A stretch of DNA of 64,000 bases from the NCBI GenBank assembly GCA_937924525.1, contig CALDSU010000008.1:434001-498000 (forward strand), given 5' to 3'. The stretch is from an uncultured Bryobacteraceae bacterium. GTDB lineage: Bacteria > Acidobacteriota > Terriglobia > Bryobacterales > Bryobacteraceae. The notes under the pieces are model-generated. The model worked only from the letters and a program-made list of their open reading frames with translations. It was not told the DNA's origin and searched no databases. Of the stretch, positions 1 to 47,972 are shown piece by piece (position 1 is the first letter of the stretch; each line of letters opens with the position of its first letter). Made by a program: the position numbers and the translations under genes.

Positions 1-590
1 CCGAAGACGAAGAAGTAGGTGACCATGAGCAGCAGCGGGCTCAGTACGGTCCAGAACGCGCCCATGAAAGAGCCGCGATAGCGCGCCAGGATGTCGCGCC
101 GCACCATGGACCGCACCAGGCCCCAGTTGGCGAAAATGGCGCGGAAGGGCAGCGTGAACAATCGCCCAACGGCGCGCCACCAGCGTTCGCGGCGCAGCGT
201 GCGGGCGGTGGCCAGGCGCAGCTTCTGCCAGTCCGCCCGCCCGTGCTCGACGACGGCATCGAGCAGCAGGAATGGCCAGCCGCGCTCGGAGTACCACGCC
301 ACGCCTTCGCGCAAAGGCGAAACCACAATGCGATAGCGGCCTGGCTCGGGTGGCAGATCGATCGACAGCGCCAGCGGAGCTTCTCCTTCCGGCGGGAGAA
401 CGCCGGGAAGCAGGGCCCGCGGACCATCGCGCACCAGCGTGTCGCTTTCCGGATCGAACATCAAATAGCCGAAGGCGAATCCCTGGTCTGCGGGCCACGG
501 CTCCCCGGAGCGGTTCCGCGCGGTGAACTCGATCCGGAGGCGAAGATCGCCCTCCCGGACGACACGAGGCTGCTGGTAGCCGACGCTCAT
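1..590 (-). CDS. ABC-2 type polysaccharide export permease, N-terminal part (partial)
   Basis: The frame is open from an ATG at 590 through the left edge, so only about 196 residues are visible. Residues ~150-196 read like the start of a Wzm/TagG-type permease: the segment MVRRDILARYRGSFMG is followed by a hydrophobic helix (FWTVLSPLLLMVTYFFVFG). Such permeases pair with an ATPase to export O-antigen or similar glycans across the inner membrane. Unusually, residues 1-110 are not membrane-like. They look like a beta-sandwich domain (alternating hydrophobic strands, PPEPGRYRIVVSPLR), recalling the glycan-binding C-terminal domain of Wzt ATPases but attached to the permease. The start overlaps the stop of the upstream GT4-methyltransferase gene by 4 bp (ATGA), so the two are probably translationally coupled. 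The family call is firm for the visible helix; the N-terminal domain assignment is inference. Confidence 0.72.
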   Translation of the reverse strand, partial: MSVGYQQPRVVREGDLRLRIEFTARNRSGEPWPADQGFAFGYLMFDPESDTLVRDGPRALLPGVLPPEGEAPLALSIDLPPEPGRYRIVVSPLREGVAWYSERGWPFLLLDAVVEHGRADWQKLRLATARTLRRERWWRAVGRLFTLPFRAIFANWGLVRSMVRRDILARYRGSFMGAFWTVLSPLLLMVTYFFVF

Positions 591-2569
591 GAGTAGAGCC
601 AGGAAGGATAGCGGTCGCGCACCGGACCCGTCTTGCGGCCCACGGCGTAAATGCCGTCGCCCCGGAGGTGCACGGGCAGGTTGTAGCCGCGCAGCAGGTG
701 CTCTACCCAGGCATACTCCGGATGAGCTTCCTCGCGAAAGGGACCCGTTTCGAGCAGCGTCACCTCGAAACCGGAGTTTTCCAGAAGCTGGTGGATCTCG
801 CGGGGGGTGTACTCCCGGTTGTGGCGGGCCGCGGGTTCTTCCGCGCCGGCAGGCCGGAGGTAGGCGTGGAAGAAGCCGGGGTGGTAGCCCTCCAGCATGG
901 CCGCCAGCCCGCGCAGCGCGGCGATATTGGGCGTCGTCAACACCAGGCTCCCGCCGGGCCGCAGGATGCGGTGCACCTCCGTCAGGAGATGCATGGGATC
1001 GGCGTACAAGTGCTCGATCAGCTCGCAACAGAGCACCGTGGTGAAGGACTCGTCCGCGTACGGGTAGCGATCCCGTTCGGCGTCGAAATGATCGATGTCG
1101 CAGACAAAGGTTTCACCGCTCGCGGAGCGGACTTCCTTGTGATCCACCACGCCGAGCTTGCCATAATAACAGCCGCGCACATGCCCGTAGCCCAACTGAA
1201 AGCGCAACGCCGGCGTGATTTGCAGGTAAGCGCCCATCTCCAGGATGTGATCGTCGGGCCCGCCGGGGGGAATGATCGACAGCGTCTTTTGCAGGCGGCT
1301 GACATGCGCGGCGGCGTAAGCGCGCGCGTTTGGTTCCTGCACCCAGTCGAGAATGATTTCCGGCGGCGGCGTGGGAGCCGGCGCTTGGGCCGGCGCCGGC
1401 CCGGGCGATGGCTGAGGCCCGGGATCCTGATAAGGGCGTCCCTCGGTCGCCGCGCGGGCGAACTCCAGGTAGCGGCGCGCGGCCAGTTCCCAGCTACACT
1501 CCCGCGCGACGTAGCGCCGGGCCGCCTCGCCCAGGGTGCGCGCCAGGTCCAGGCGCGAGGTCAGCAGGTTCAGATACTCGAAGATCAGGTCTTCCTCGCC
1601 CGCGCCCACGGGAATCTTCAGGCAGATCTCGTCGGGCAGTTCCGCGAAGGAACCTACGTCGGAAACGAGCACGGCCTTTCCCATGCCCAGCGCGCGCAAG
1701 AGACTGCCCGACGTTTCGCCCACGGTGGGATAGCGCAAGTTCAGGACGATGTCGCAGGCGGCCAGGCAGCCTTCAAAGTCCTCGAGCGGCGCGAAACCGG
1801 TTAGCCGGACATACGGCGTCAACTCCAGGGATTGAATCAGCGCGCGCACCGGAAAATCGGGGTGCTCCTCACCCACCAGGATCATGCGCACCCGGGGATG
1901 GAGCCGGACCAGGCGGCGAAAGGCGCGCAGCGACTCGGCGATGCGTTTGTACGGTTTCAGAAAACCGAAGATTCCCACCAGCGGCGTAGCTGGGTCGAGG
2001 CCCAGCGCATGCCGGTGCTCCTGCCCGCTCGCGCGCGGAATCCACGCGCCGTGCGGGATACAGGCCACGGGTCCCGCAAAACCGAACCGGCGCATCTGGT
2101 CCGCCATGTAACGGCTGTGCACGATGACTCCGCTGGCGGCTTCGAGCAGGCGGCGGACCATCGGGAGGCCCTCGTAGTCGGGCCCGGTTTCACCGTTGCG
2201 CACACGGCGGGCATGGGCGAGCGCCGCGGGTCCGCCTTCGTATTCACACTCGCGCAGGTAGGCGTCCCAGTCGCCCTGCTTGATGGTGATGTCCGCCAGC
2301 AGGTGGTGCAGGTTAGCCTCGTGCATCACCACCAGCCGGGGCGGCGGCGAGCCCGCCAGCGCCAGCGCGCTGCGATACGCGTCAGCGTGATAGGCGTTAT
2401 TGCCCACCTGGAAAAGCAGTGCGTCGCAGGCGGCAGCCTCGCGCGCCGGCCGGCGCCCATCGAACACCTCCACGTCAGCCAGCGGCCGCAGGTGCTCGAG
2501 CAGCGTCTGCGCGTAATCGGCGATGCCGCTGCGCGCCGGAGGCAGCGGGGAAAAAAAACCGAGACGCAC
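587..2569 (-). CDS. GT4 glycosyltransferase fused to SAM-dependent methyltransferase
   Basis: This is a 660-residue two-enzyme fusion. Residues 1-~385 form a GT-B glycosyltransferase (family 4-like), with a glycine-rich start (FFSPLPPARSGIADYA), the donor-domain segment GIFGFLKPYKR and the late GETSGSLLRALGMGKAVL loop. A Pro/Ala-rich linker (~390-410) leads to a class I methyltransferase at ~415-650. It carries an ILEMGAYLQ motif I-like segment, CCELIEHL, and ILRPGGSLVLTTPN, as in Methyltransf_11/23 proteins. The likely role is adding a sugar and methylating a glycan or its terminus in the cytoplasm during surface-polysaccharide assembly. The methyl acceptor cannot be inferred. The gene starts 1 bp after the DUF3108 gene and overlaps the ABC permease start by 4 bp, so it belongs to the same operon. 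Confidence 0.85.
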   Translation of the reverse strand: MRLGFFSPLPPARSGIADYAQTLLEHLRPLADVEVFDGRRPAREAAACDALLFQVGNNAYHADAYRSALALAGSPPPRLVVMHEANLHHLLADITIKQGDWDAYLRECEYEGGPAALAHARRVRNGETGPDYEGLPMVRRLLEAASGVIVHSRYMADQMRRFGFAGPVACIPHGAWIPRASGQEHRHALGLDPATPLVGIFGFLKPYKRIAESLRAFRRLVRLHPRVRMILVGEEHPDFPVRALIQSLELTPYVRLTGFAPLEDFEGCLAACDIVLNLRYPTVGETSGSLLRALGMGKAVLVSDVGSFAELPDEICLKIPVGAGEEDLIFEYLNLLTSRLDLARTLGEAARRYVARECSWELAARRYLEFARAATEGRPYQDPGPQPSPGPAPAQAPAPTPPPEIILDWVQEPNARAYAAAHVSRLQKTLSIIPPGGPDDHILEMGAYLQITPALRFQLGYGHVRGCYYGKLGVVDHKEVRSASGETFVCDIDHFDAERDRYPYADESFTTVLCCELIEHLYADPMHLLTEVHRILRPGGSLVLTTPNIAALRGLAAMLEGYHPGFFHAYLRPAGAEEPAARHNREYTPREIHQLLENSGFEVTLLETGPFREEAHPEYAWVEHLLRGYNLPVHLRGDGIYAVGRKTGPVRDRYPSWLYS

Positions 2570-43709: not shown

Positions 43710-44192
43710 GAGCCTGGACTCCGGTGTAGCTGGCCCAAAGATCTAGTACTCCCATCTTCTGACCCCCTCACAATAGCCGTCATCCTCCCCCAAGACCCGC
43801 CCGGAATTCGGTCCGGAAAACCCTGCTCGGGCAAGAAGTGGTTCACGGGGATTTGTATTCCGATAAACATATGTTTATCAACTACTTACATATAATCTAG
43901 ATCTAAATTTTCCCAAAACACGCGCTAAGTTGGGTGCGGAGAAAGCGGGGTTCCTTACGGGGAAATCCGTAACCCAAATATGAACGACGAACCGATCGTC
44001 ATTCCCCCTCCTGTTCTGTGGTTTTAACTAGATAGGGAAGAATCTTCCCTGAATCCGCTGCCACAGGCGGTTTACGGACAACCATCAAACACTCGGTAGT
44101 GTTGCCACGACACGGCGAAAATCGGTATTCTGCTCCCTGGGGAGATACCTCGCTAATCGGGATATCCCCAGGGATCGGATCTCGGCACCCCG
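43710..44192. promoter_or_regulatory. AT-rich, hairpin-rich leader region of the CHAT operon
   Basis: This 483-bp gap has clearly lower GC than its surroundings and holds no gene. It contains four separate inverted repeats: the palindrome at 43862-43879 (own entry); TTACGG/CCGTAA at 43955-43972; AGGGAAG-AAT-CTTCCCT at 44034-44050 (7-bp stem, 3-base loop); and TCCCTGGGGA at 44134-44143 pairing with TCCCCAGGGA at 44165-44174 (10-bp stem, 21-base loop). The last two would lie in the mRNA leader, with the final stem only 18 bases before the ATG at 44193. Confidence 0.6.
43862..43879 (+). promoter_or_regulatory. 18-bp perfect palindrome beside a TATAAT box
   Basis: GATAAACATATGTTTATC reads the same on both strands over all 18 bases. 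A consensus TATAAT hexamer lies 11 bases after it at 43891-43896, so the palindrome covers the expected -35 position. This is a good operator candidate for a dimeric repressor or activator of the downstream CHAT operon. Confidence 0.6.
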
Positions 44193-46568
44193 ATGCGGAT
44201 AGTGGGCGCGCTGTTTATTGCGCTTGCATTCATTCCGCAGGGCAGTTCGATTCGCAGCAACGGGCGGCCTACCCAGTCGGTTTCGACGGGTTCCTACGAG
44301 CGGTTGGGGGGAAGTGCGTCCGCAGTTCCCCAGCTCCTGCATTCCGCCAAGGAAGCATTCCACAAGCAGGAAATCAGCAAGTCGATTGAGATCTATGAGC
44401 GGGCGCTGCGACTGGCCGAGCAGGGCGGCGGCGTACGTGACAGGGGCTTGGCCCATTGGGGACTCGGAGCGGGCTGGTTTGTGGCGCGCGACTACGGGCG
44501 GGCGTGGACTCACCTATTGGCGGCGCGCGAACTCCTTCGCGAGAGCCGGGAATCGGAATTGGCCGCTGGGGTTGAGGCGAATCTCTCCTCCCTGTACTTC
44601 CACCTCGGCGAAGCGGATGCGGCGCTCGAGGTGGGGGAGCGGGCCGTGGCGCTGCTGCCCGGCCGGACGCGGCATCGGCTGGCGGCGCCCGTGCTGTTCA
44701 ACCTCGCCGCCATCCAGGCCGGAACGGGGCGCCTGGATCAGGCGATCCACACTTTCTCCGAGGGAATCCAGGCCGCCGAATTCGCGGCGGACCGGGAGAG
44801 CGAGGCGACAGGCTGGTCTAAATTGGGCTTCGAACTGTTTCAGGCTGGCCGGCTGGCGGAAGCCGAAGCCGCCCTGGTCGAATCTTTCCGTTTGCGCCGG
44901 CTCTTCCGGCTCCCCCACCTGGATGTCTCCCGGGAGACGTTAAGCCAGATCAAGCTGGAGCAGGGCGATCTGCGAGCCGCAGAGAGGATTCTAGGTCCGG
45001 AACCCGAGGCGCCTTCCTGGAGGTATTTTTACGCGCGCGGCCGGCTCCGGGAAGCGCGCGGAAGCCTGGATGCCGCGGTGCGGGACCTGCGGAAGGCGGT
45101 CGAGTTGTTGCAGCGTCACCGGGAAAGGCTGCCGCAGAGCGACGCCCTGCGCCTCAGCGCGGATTGGGTGTGGCAGCGGGTGCCCAAAGCATACGCGGAA
45201 ACGGCGGCCCGCTTGGCGCTGCGGACCGGCAGCTCGCTCCTGGCGGATAAGGCTCTGGGAGTTCTGGAGCACCACCGGTCTGCCAGCCTGCTCCACCGGC
45301 TGCGAGCTCGCCCGTACCCGTTCGCCCGAAGCGCCCTGCCGGACTCGGTGGCTGTTGCGCTGGGCAAAGCCGAAGCAGCCTTGCTGCGCGCGGATCGGGA
45401 AAGCCAGTCGCGGTTTTTCCGGCAAATGCGCGCCGCCTGGATCGAAGCAGAGGCGGCGCAAGGGGATGCGGCGCATCAACAGGTTCCGCGGGCGGCGCAG
45501 GCCCTCCGGGCGTCTCTGGCTCCTGACGAAGCGCTCCTCAGTTTCGCCCTCGGGCAGGAGCGTTCGCTCGCCTGGATGGCGACCCGCAGCGGCGTCTGGG
45601 TGCGCGCACTGCCCCCGCGGGAGCTGCTGGCGGCCCGCATTGCCGAGTTTCGCAACGACTTGGAGCACGATCGCACAGGCTCGCGCGCCGGAGAGGAGTT
45701 GTGCCGCGCGCTGCTGGACCGGGCGCCGGAACCGGTGAGGTCCCGCCCGGTGTGGCTGCTGTCGCTGGAGCGGGATTTGTTCACGCTTCCCTTCGCGGCG
45801 TTGCCTTGCGGCAAGTCCGGCCGCCCGCTGGTCCACGATCACACCTTGCACGTGGCGCCCGGAGCGTGGATGGCCAGACTGCGCGAGGCGACGCCGGTCC
45901 AGCCCGGCTGGTTCCTCGGAGTGGGAGACCCGGTTTATAATCCGGCCGACCCGCGGCGGAAAGGCTGGCGGCGCTGGCCGCGTTCGGAGCGCTGGTTGAG
46001 CAGGCTGCCGGGCACCGCTGAAGAGGTGCGGGCGAGCGCGTCGCAATGGCCTGGGCCTGCGCGGTTGCTGGTGGGTCCCCAGGCAACCCGGCAGCAACTC
46101 CGGGCGGCGCTGGAAGATGGGCCGGCCGTGGTTCATCTTGCGACGCATGTCGTTCAGCCTCCCGCGCCCGGTCCAGCCCACAACTTCCTCGCTCTCAGCC
46201 TGACGCCGGCTGGCGATCCCGAGATGGTGGGGCAGTTCGAAATCTCCGCAGGCTGGCGTACGGACGCCCGGCTGGTGGTGCTGAGCGGGTGCGCATCCGG
46301 GCAGGGAGTGGCCCGGGATGGCGCGGGGCTGGAGGGAATGACGCGGGCGTGGCTGGCGGCAGGCGCGCACGCGGTGCTGGCAACGCTTTGGCCGGTGCGG
46401 GACGAAAGTGCAAGCTTCTTCTCGGAATTCTATGAGGCGCTTCGCGCCGATCCCGCCCGAGACCCCGCCCGGGCGCTGCGGCAGGCTCAACTTCGCGCCC
46501 TCGAGGCGGGAAGCTGGCGAGCTCGTCCCAGTCTCTGGGCGTCCTATTTCTTGATCAGCACAAGGTGA
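44193..46568 (+). CDS. CHAT-domain (caspase-like) protease with N-terminal TPR repeats
   Basis: 791 residues. MRIVGALFIALAFIPQGSS is signal-peptide-like, which would place the protein outside the cytoplasm. Residues ~40-330 are TPR-like helical repeats (e.g. EISKSIEIYERALRLAEQGG, GEADAALEVGERAVALLPG, GRLDQAIHTFSEGIQAAEFA). Residues ~460-790 are a CHAT domain with the dyad His near 651 (VVHLATHVVQ) and Cys near 700 (VVLSGCASGQGV), and the closing LWASYFLIS. CHAT proteases (separase/caspase clan) cut proteins on signal. It overlaps the sigma gene by 4 bp (GTGA). The export idea is an inference from the N-terminus only. Confidence 0.9.
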   Translation: MRIVGALFIALAFIPQGSSIRSNGRPTQSVSTGSYERLGGSASAVPQLLHSAKEAFHKQEISKSIEIYERALRLAEQGGGVRDRGLAHWGLGAGWFVARDYGRAWTHLLAARELLRESRESELAAGVEANLSSLYFHLGEADAALEVGERAVALLPGRTRHRLAAPVLFNLAAIQAGTGRLDQAIHTFSEGIQAAEFAADRESEATGWSKLGFELFQAGRLAEAEAALVESFRLRRLFRLPHLDVSRETLSQIKLEQGDLRAAERILGPEPEAPSWRYFYARGRLREARGSLDAAVRDLRKAVELLQRHRERLPQSDALRLSADWVWQRVPKAYAETAARLALRTGSSLLADKALGVLEHHRSASLLHRLRARPYPFARSALPDSVAVALGKAEAALLRADRESQSRFFRQMRAAWIEAEAAQGDAAHQQVPRAAQALRASLAPDEALLSFALGQERSLAWMATRSGVWVRALPPRELLAARIAEFRNDLEHDRTGSRAGEELCRALLDRAPEPVRSRPVWLLSLERDLFTLPFAALPCGKSGRPLVHDHTLHVAPGAWMARLREATPVQPGWFLGVGDPVYNPADPRRKGWRRWPRSERWLSRLPGTAEEVRASASQWPGPARLLVGPQATRQQLRAALEDGPAVVHLATHVVQPPAPGPAHNFLALSLTPAGDPEMVGQFEISAGWRTDARLVVLSGCASGQGVARDGAGLEGMTRAWLAAGAHAVLATLWPVRDESASFFSEFYEALRADPARDPARALRQAQLRALEAGSWRARPSLWASYFLISTR

Positions 46569-47239
46569 ATCCCGTGGCGCCAGGTCTTTCTTCTTCCTTC
46601 CATGCCCCCGGCCGCAAGCCGGGCGCGGAAACCCGCCGGGAGGAGGAAGCCGGGTGCGCAAGCACGCCGCCGGCTCCGGATTGGGCGGACCTGGTTACCC
46701 GCATCCAACGGGACGACGCGGCCGCCATGATGGAGCTGTACCGGCTCTTCTCCCGCGGCATCCGCTTCTATCTTTGCCGCCAGCTTGGTCCGCAGGATCT
46801 TGACGATAAGGTCCACGACACGTTCGTGATCGTCGTCCAGGCGATCCAGCGGGGCGAGCTGCGGGAGGCAGACCGGCTGATGGGTTTTGTCCGCACCGTG
46901 GTCCGCCGACAGGTGGCCGGCTACATCGACCGGGCCATTCAGAACCGGAAGGGAAGGGTGGATCTGGAGCAAGGCATCCATGTGCGGGACGCCCGCCTGG
47001 ACCCCGAAGAGGAAGCCATGAATCGGCAGATGGCGAAGATCGCGGAACGGGTGCTCCGCGGGGTTTCCGATCGCGACCGCGAGATTCTGACCCGGTTCTA
47101 CCTTCAGGAACAGAGTCAGGAGGAGATCTGCCGGGAAATGGGCCTCACCGAAACTCAGTTTCGCCTGCTTAAGTCCCGGGCGAAGGCCCGCTTCGGGGCG
47201 CTGGGGAAGAAAAAACTGCTGAAGGCTCATTTTCGATGA
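46565..47239 (+). CDS. ECF-type RNA polymerase sigma factor
   Basis: 224 residues from a GTG at 46565 that overlaps the CHAT stop. A ~40-residue Pro/Arg-rich start precedes region 2 (MMELYRLFSRGIRFYLCRQL, QDLDDKVHDTFVIVVQAIQ, with the region 2.4-like LMGFVRTVVRRQVAGYI) and region 4 (GVSDRDREILTRFYLQEQSQ, EEICREMGLTETQFRLLKSRAKARF as HTH). Regions 1 and 3 are absent, as in ECF factors. It should redirect RNA polymerase on a signal. The anti-sigma factor is encoded next, 64 bp on, and the CHAT protease directly before. Confidence 0.93.
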   Translation: MNPVAPGLSSSFHAPGRKPGAETRREEEAGCASTPPAPDWADLVTRIQRDDAAAMMELYRLFSRGIRFYLCRQLGPQDLDDKVHDTFVIVVQAIQRGELREADRLMGFVRTVVRRQVAGYIDRAIQNRKGRVDLEQGIHVRDARLDPEEEAMNRQMAKIAERVLRGVSDRDREILTRFYLQEQSQEEICREMGLTETQFRLLKSRAKARFGALGKKKLLKAHFR

Positions 47240-47303
47240 GAATCTTGCCGGGCAGCGGGGACTAACTACTGGGGGCTGGTGTGCCCTCCGGAATGGAGCC
47301 GTG

Positions 47304-47972
47304 ATGGCCGAACACGATGGCTCATGTTGGGAGGAGGAGGAGATCGAGGGGTATGCGTTGGGAAAAATGAGCGCTTCCCGCGCCGCCGCGTTCGAGGAAC
47401 ATCTTCTGATCTGTCACCGCTGCCAGGACCGGCTGGCGGAACTGGACGCCTTCGTGCGGGCGCTGCGGGCGGTGGCGCCCCGCCTGCGGGAGGAGGACAG
47501 GAAAAAAAACTTCGCGGGCGCGCGGATCCTCCCATGGATTGAAACCCTGCGGCACTGGGGAGAGACTTTGCCCCGGGTTCCCGCCTTGGCCGGCATGCTG
47601 CTGGTCGTGGGCCTGCTGGTCGTGGTCCCCTGGGGCTTCCGCCGTGGGAATGCTCGCCTGGCCAGGACCCCGGCGGTCGTGGAACTGGAGGCATACCGCA
47701 GCGCCCCCGGGGCGGTGGCGTCCGGGCGGAGCGACCGGCCTCTGACGATCCGGACCCGGGCGGTGGGACTACCCTCCTCGCCGAGCTATCTCCTGGAGAT
47801 CGCATCTGTTACTGGGCAGCGCGAGTGGGCGCAACCCGTTCAGGACCGCGGCGGTTGGCTGGAGGCCACCACGCCTCGACCACTTGCCCCCGGCCAGCAT
47901 TTCGTGCGCCTGTACCTGCCGGGCGGCGCACTGGTGCGTGAGTTCAGTTTGCGCGTCGACCGAGCCCGCTAA
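47304..47972 (+). CDS. Zinc-finger anti-sigma factor, membrane-spanning
   Basis: 222 residues from the ATG at 47304 (GGAG upstream). The N-terminal ~60 residues form an anti-sigma zinc finger (AAAFEEHLLICHRCQDRLAEL, the His-x3-Cys-x2-Cys pattern). One membrane helix follows (LAGMLLVVGLLVVVPWGF, residues ~98-115), then a ~100-residue exported domain with beta-like strands (YLLEIASVTGQREW, GQHFVRLYLPGG). It should hold the sigma factor at the membrane and release it when the outer domain is cut or changed. It is the last gene of the three-gene operon. Confidence 0.88.
   Translation: MAEHDGSCWEEEEIEGYALGKMSASRAAAFEEHLLICHRCQDRLAELDAFVRALRAVAPRLREEDRKKNFAGARILPWIETLRHWGETLPRVPALAGMLLVVGLLVVVPWGFRRGNARLARTPAVVELEAYRSAPGAVASGRSDRPLTIRTRAVGLPSSPSYLLEIASVTGQREWAQPVQDRGGWLEATTPRPLAPGQHFVRLYLPGGALVREFSLRVDRAR

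Follow-up and report, generated by a model that had tools for sequence, protein, structure and literature searches.

The CHAT, sigma factor and anti-sigma factor genes

The window analysed here is a stretch of 64,000 nucleotides from an uncultured Bryobacteraceae bacterium (assembly GCA_937924525.1, contig CALDSU010000008.1, positions 434,001 to 498,000). It contains three consecutive genes on the + strand, here called the trio, which encode a CHAT-domain protein with tetratricopeptide repeats (TPRs), a divergent extracytoplasmic function (ECF) sigma factor and a zinc-finger membrane anti-sigma factor. An initial annotation, made from the sequence alone, had reported this order, with a 4-bp overlap of the CHAT and sigma genes, and had suggested that an exported CHAT protease cuts the anti-sigma factor to free the sigma factor. 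The coordinates confirm both order and overlap, the latter holding if the sigma factor starts at the GTG at 46565; an alternative start, the GTG at 47301, is possible for the anti-sigma factor. The window's genome encodes one CHAT protein (by Pfam CHAT) and one such sigma factor (at a threshold of E 0.001), both located in the window.

Rarity of this adjacency in other genomes had been named by the initial annotation as a ground for abandoning its proposal; the order proved to be common in the family. A search with the CHAT protein covered 101 genomes (the window's own and relatives), of which 60 matched at E 1e-20, mostly from the same family. Sixty regions were compared, and 52 of them (L033–L084) are orthologous family loci from other genomes. 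The sigma gene lies directly 3' of the CHAT gene in 49 of the 51 loci with any room for it (in L054 the contig stops one base past CHAT). In the first of the two exceptions (L041, genome G053) CHAT stands alone and the sigma and anti-sigma genes lie together on another contig; in the second (L065) the 358 bases 3' of CHAT hold no sigma gene, and the sigma and anti-sigma genes start another contig. The anti-sigma gene follows next after sigma in 41 of 48 loci with room, the remaining seven genomes encoding a full-length anti-sigma factor elsewhere (E 1e-46 to 1e-61). CHAT also lies upstream of sigma in 74 of the 80 sigma loci of named genomes, which include Bryobacterales, Bryobacteraceae, Solibacteraceae, Candidatus Solibacter usitatus and other acidobacteria. 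The four nearest neighbours in the window (two metallophosphoesterases, a VTT protein and an AsnC-type regulator) were each found in none of the 52 regions, and three more distant window genes recur in one, one and two of them, some regions ending at contig ends. Chance adjacency was rejected because the trio order recurs across the family in differing surroundings. On these sequences the trio forms a module found throughout the Bryobacteraceae, and the conserved unit is the trio rather than the region.

The sigma factor scores 49.1 bits against TIGR02937 (sigma70-ECF; cut-off 42.9) and consists of sigma regions 2 and 4 only, as ECF sigma factors do. It is called divergent because Pfam region 4_2 is above its cut-off while region 2, at 17.1 bits, falls below the cut-off of 24. 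It is rare beyond the family: 108 of 399 genomes drawn from the class match at 1e-20, with 97 of the 108 lying within the family, and only G502 (1.2e-56) among the 11 other matches is better than 1e-22.

In the anti-sigma factor a zf-HC2 domain is recognised at 23.3 bits (cut-off 22.2) with the motif H33-x3-C37-x2-C40. The HxxxCxxC zinc finger and the one membrane helix identify it as a zinc-finger membrane anti-sigma factor, as had been annotated. In the structural model the zinc-finger helices and the membrane helix are followed by an eight-stranded beta domain, the outer domain (Table 1). In anti-sigma factors of this kind the zinc finger lies on the inner side of the membrane, which would place the beta domain on the outer side. 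The predicted local distance difference test score (pLDDT) is mostly above 90 in blocks of the outer domain, except for residues 131–140, which score 72 between neighbouring blocks at 91 and 96. A search with the outer domain returned only common beta-sandwich matches, near E 3e-4.

The CHAT domain is recognised by Pfam at E 1.2e-45 (156.6 bits, cut-off 24) and is preceded by TPRs. The intact His-Cys pair of the initial annotation is borne out, His652 and Cys700 being invariant in 53 of 53 aligned orthologues (the window copy included), and a CHAT domain with this pair behind TPRs places the protein, by its domains, among the TPR-CHAT proteases of peptidase clan CD. The model (mean pLDDT 88.4, predicted template modelling score 0.88) starts with a short helix at residues 2–12 and is disordered up to about residue 40; a TPR superhelix follows, and then the CHAT domain. 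Csx29 and separase are among its best structural matches, and its TPR part is similar to sensor proteins built of TPRs, such as Rap (VIA Z about 23). Rap-type TPR proteins are ligand sensors. A PDB sequence search with the whole protein matched only TPR proteins.

The N-terminus, earlier described as resembling a signal peptide, has a conserved basic-hydrophobic start. Among the 46 CHAT proteins whose start is complete, the best 11-residue hydropathy reaches a median of 2.70 in the N-terminal part; the median is 1.94 in the remainder of these proteins and 1.40 in the sigma frames. The most hydrophobic stretch is N-terminal in 45 of the 46. One orthologue (L071) carries the lipobox-like motif LLAGC. 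The conserved segment fits export of the CHAT protein, which comparison of the orthologues makes plausible. A cytoplasmic CHAT protein had been another ground named by the initial annotation for abandoning its proposal; the comparison speaks against it.

Table 1. Features of the trio and its upstream region (positions in the window)
Feature	Position	Strand	Basis
Sigma70-like promoter match TTGCCA-N18-TATTCT, upstream of CHAT gene	44102..44131	+	Consensus scan, 9/12
Inverted repeat / leader hairpin, directly 5' of CHAT gene	44122..44185	+	Fold and alignment with relatives
TPR-CHAT protein, 791 residues	44193..46568	+	Pfam, model, N-terminal comparison
Regions of the CHAT protein: signal-like N-terminus, residues ~1–20; TPR region, ~42–420; CHAT domain, 501–788			
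His652 codon, catalytic-type His	46146..46148	+	Invariant 53/53
Cys700 codon, catalytic-type Cys	46290..46292	+	Invariant 53/53
Divergent ECF sigma factor, 224 residues	46565..47239	+	TIGR02937 above cut-off; orthologues 49–70% identical
Zinc-finger membrane anti-sigma factor, 222 residues	47304..47972	+	zf-HC2 above cut-off; model pLDDT 84.5
Anti-sigma membrane-spanning helix, residues 96–112	47589..47639	+	Helix in model, hydrophobic stretch
Anti-sigma outer beta domain, residues 124–219	47673..47960	+	Eight strands in model; absent from genomes without CHAT
Arg132 codon, proposed cut site Arg132-Ser133	47697..47699	+	Arg in 106/108 outer-domain rows

The promoter match is the only hit in 4.7 kb (0.3 on average in shuffles) and resembles the TTGCCA ... 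TGGTATGAT stretch 5' of CHAT in relatives, which share this stretch and then an inverted repeat before the CHAT gene. A strict pattern for the leader, run over both strands of about 2.0 million bases, has 54 matches; in shuffled sequence, on one strand, it has one. Copies occur in L033–L084 and in loci of named genomes. The 53 matches that could be placed are all situated at the start of CHAT, on the same strand, and the 54th (L241) is also in a CHAT-bearing locus; the pattern detects the leader at 28 of the 52 CHAT loci and at none of the CHAT-less sigma loci. An alignment of 40 sequences was made from 39 distinct copies in relatives and the window copy, which deviates from the strict pattern, is not matched by it and was added by eye. 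Compensatory change is seen in 14 of 17 pairs, and none of 500 shuffles reaches the observed values. The window copy folds at -29.8 kcal/mol, a moderate gain over shuffled sequence (z -1.99; 7 of 200 shuffles equally good). The leader may be an RNA hairpin or a palindromic operator; Rfam has no family at gathering score around the trio.

Joint presence and loss of the CHAT protein and the outer domain

The sigma factor is often retained in genomes without a CHAT orthologue, the adjoining anti-sigma factor being shortened. Among 84 scored rows of a sigma tree, 63 combine CHAT with the outer domain, 20 lack both, one has the outer domain only and none has CHAT only. The tree requires 12 changes for CHAT and 11 for the outer domain. 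Across seven independent pairs on well-supported branches the outer domain changes in the same direction as CHAT in 6.7 on average and in the opposite direction in 0 (sign test p 0.0156–0.0312). In L222, L223, L225, L227–L234, L243–L245 and L249 the anti-sigma factor stops before, or is without, a clear membrane helix; in L224 the helix is kept and the protein ends there; and in L235, L242, L247 and L248 no anti-sigma gene adjoins sigma. The contrast is also seen within genera, where genomes with CHAT have a full anti-sigma factor (for example G250, as against G033, G248, G249 and G251). Genomes in which the genes are merely separated (G053 and six others) retain both CHAT and the full anti-sigma factor, so that adjacency is not needed and joint presence is.

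The tree contains 87 sigma sequences, namely 48 of the 49 sigma matches in L033–L084, 38 loci (L222–L259) and the window, with L041 represented as L237. It omits L077, whose sigma gene is cut by a contig end, L054 and L065, which have no sigma gene in the stretch, and L260, which has none. Three sequences are unscored: L044 and L246 (anti-sigma cut by a contig end) and L259 (a contig end on the CHAT side). CHAT and outer-domain states were assigned by hand; the outer domain was scored as absent in L235, L242, L247 and L248 where no anti-sigma gene lies beside sigma and the genome has no strong match, and L250 was counted as positive on its E-value alone (5.8e-44). The CHAT-negative rows were selected for lacking CHAT and the positives are mostly one per genus; the 84 rows are drawn from a family of 237 genomes, in which E-values of orthologues and paralogues overlap in cut contigs. 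The six CHAT-less loci in the named set add no events because that set overlaps the unnamed one.

The CHAT copies of CHAT-less genomes were considered as hidden orthologues and rejected, their best matches lying outside the well-supported orthologue branch, with the exception of G171; in 6 of the 26 genomes searched there is no CHAT match at 1e-20. Several genomes without a CHAT orthologue (G248, G249, G251, G255, G058 and G273) have many paralogues, with up to 15 matches per genome. A reading of L133 as having CHAT but a truncated anti-sigma factor was likewise rejected: at L133:5624-6300, in a metagenome assembly, the outer domain is present, its frame differing from that of the zinc-finger part, and this change of frame is probably due to a sequencing error or to a frameshift that arose recently.

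Position 132 of the anti-sigma factor lies in the loop of lower model confidence, about 20 residues outside the membrane helix. It is Arg in all but two of the rows with an outer domain (Table 1), with Leu four residues N-terminal to it and mostly Gly (85 rows), else Ser or Ala, following it. One of the two other rows (L158/L238) is an alignment gap; the view that it lacks the Arg was rejected, as a long linker insert had been misplaced by the aligner and the row does hold Arg-Gly, in VELRALRGG. In this anti-sigma factor a series of short, nearly identical repeats (ETTAK) also separates the Arg-Gly motif from the outer beta domain. The other row, G058 (L226), has Thr at position 132 and retains Arg202 and Glu213; G058 is the sole CHAT-less genome scored with an outer domain.

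Separase and other proteases of clan CD cleave after Arg. A cut after Arg132 is proposed because this Arg is near-invariant in a flexible loop, is Thr in the CHAT-less G058 and suits the preference of clan CD. Given the joint loss, and Thr132 in its sole exception, CHAT and the outer domain probably work together, with CHAT acting on the outer domain. The circuit of the initial annotation is more likely than adjacency alone suggests.

A proposed envelope switch and its alternatives

It is somewhat probable, in our judgement, that the trio forms an envelope switch in which an exported TPR-CHAT protein cuts the anti-sigma factor just outside the membrane and so frees the ECF sigma factor. As the gene families suggest, the zinc-finger domain would keep the sigma factor bound at the membrane's inner face, while the TPR part of the exported protein would sense a signal. 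On a trigger, the CHAT domain would cut the flexible loop outside the membrane, most likely after Arg132, and the remaining stump would be proteolysed further, for example by a site-2 protease, to release the sigma factor. Cutting would be the simplest mechanism. The earlier interpretation is in this way partly supported: the joint loss favours its two proteins working together, and cleavage, like export, the site of the cut and the release of the sigma factor, is a step that we infer.

Several points weigh against this switch. The losses could reflect the dropping of a whole input branch, which does not require cutting. G058 keeps an outer domain although it lacks a CHAT orthologue, and G171 (L262) has a CHAT orthologue with intact His and Cys and no sigma match in its genome, an absence which may be missing data since the contig ends 147 bases past the CHAT match; most of the compared genomes are incomplete metagenome assemblies. 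Arg202 (108/108) and Glu213 (107/108) are conserved too and are likely structural, and Arg132 may be so as well. CHAT proteins are abundant and some are perhaps not proteases in vivo. Finally, a periplasmic Cys protease requires a reduced Cys.

One alternative is that CHAT acts on the input side as a sensor or scaffold which docks on the outer domain and exerts control without cutting, its TPR part binding a ligand. The joint loss fits this view, as do the likeness of the TPR part to Rap-type sensors and the presence of a TPR-CHAT region and an anti-sigma factor on one chain in DdvA (see below). A pure scaffold would, however, not need the His and Cys that are invariant in the orthologues, and a single conserved Arg in a flexible loop would suit a cut site better than a docking face. 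On balance a role without cutting appears unlikely.

CHAT might instead be an output, with the sigma factor autoregulating the operon and the exported CHAT protease doing other envelope work. The unit opens with the CHAT gene, which has a conserved leader to itself, and adjacency alone is in keeping with this arrangement. What it does not predict is that the outer domain is lost with CHAT while the sigma factor and the zinc-finger part stay, or that Arg132 is changed in G058, and we consider it rather improbable. A cytoplasmic CHAT protein that would cut the anti-sigma factor or some other intracellular protein, in the manner of Csx29, which PMC10028731 places in the cytoplasm, is very doubtful given the signal-like N-terminus and the fact that the anti-sigma part missing alongside CHAT is the outer one.

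The envelope switch is directly testable because it names Arg132 and the His652/Cys700 pair and because natural knock-outs are available in about ten genera without CHAT. If correct, it would extend the known modes of ECF sigma factor release to an extracytoplasmic caspase-like protease, and would explain why a whole acidobacterial family keeps the trio amid changing surroundings.

Comparison with known systems

The type III CRISPR (clustered regularly interspaced short palindromic repeats) system CalpL-CalpT-CalpS has a protease, an anti-sigma factor and a sigma factor in one operon, like the trio. CalpL, however, is not known to be a CHAT protease and is activated by cyclic nucleotides. Membrane anti-sigma factors of the RseA/DegS and RsiW type are cut from outside and then processed further, according to PMC10028731; they differ from the trio in that their first protease is not of the caspase-like CHAT kind. 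In the ECF54 group, CHAT, subtilase or carboxypeptidase genes occur near sigma and proteolytic control has been proposed (PMC8999054); the group is described as having no anti-sigma factor. The window's sigma factor has an adjoining anti-sigma gene and is set apart from ECF54 on that description, rather than by sequence grouping.

In type III-E CRISPR (Craspase), PMC10028731 describes how the TPR-CHAT protease Csx29 cleaves the sigma-factor inhibitor Csx30 in the cytoplasm, relieving an ECF-like sigma factor (CASP-sigma). The system shares with the trio its TPR-CHAT fold and would share the logic of protease, inhibitor and sigma factor; it differs in being cytoplasmic and triggered by target RNA, and in having no membrane anti-sigma factor. 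The initial annotation knew of no description of its circuit, a remark to be qualified since a TPR-CHAT protease that cleaves a sigma inhibitor has been published and the closest structure is that of DdvA; for the split, exported form with CHAT and anti-sigma as separate proteins, no description was found in openly licensed papers. PADLOC, applied to the three trio proteins alone, gave no match to a Cas family, the best hit being a weak one to BovA.

Foldseek ranks DdvA of Myxococcus xanthus first for the CHAT model (E 1.5e-14, template modelling scores 0.50/0.45, 18% identity), ahead of Csx29 and separase. VIA places Csx29 chains highest (Z up to 26.9) and aligns residues 16–789 of the model to 322–991 of DdvA (Z 21.1, 594 residues, root mean square deviation 6.3). 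DdvA is also the best PDB match of a CHAT-domain profile (E 1.3e-7), in an alignment that pairs the His and Cys positions. It is titled a transmembrane anti-sigma factor and, with these structural and sequence matches to CHAT, combines an anti-sigma factor and a TPR-CHAT region in one chain. DdvS/DdvA (8rot, 8rw5) therefore resembles the trio in tying an ECF sigma factor and a membrane anti-sigma factor to a TPR-CHAT region. In DdvA the two parts form a single chain of 991 residues, whereas in the window they are two proteins, of which CHAT has its own signal-like N-terminus and the anti-sigma factor has a small outer beta domain with Arg132. The signal for DdvA is called unknown in PMC4374960. 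In M. xanthus, DdvS governs an antiphage island that includes a type III-B CRISPR system (PMC12288465).

A DdvA-like fusion was not found among 38 inspected loci, where no CHAT frame has a zinc-finger motif in its first 250 residues. A second arrangement occurs in three other acidobacterial CHAT loci of the 38 inspected (L085, L087 and L284), in which a frame having a zinc-finger motif and a hydrophobic segment lies just 5' of CHAT. At L085:3045-7575 the case is firm, and the order is sigma (region 2 E 3.9e-15; another ECF sigma factor), zf-HC2 anti-sigma and CHAT, and the anti-sigma factor holds LRTARGA, which resembles the Arg132 motif. L087 and L284 are tentative, no zinc-finger family being significant there.

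A wider reading, which we put forward tentatively, is that CHAT outside the inner membrane is the first-step protease and cuts after Arg132, and that the split, DdvA-fused and CRISPR forms are three versions of one old TPR-CHAT/ECF design. If so, it would suggest how DdvA and the CRISPR Csx29 system are related.

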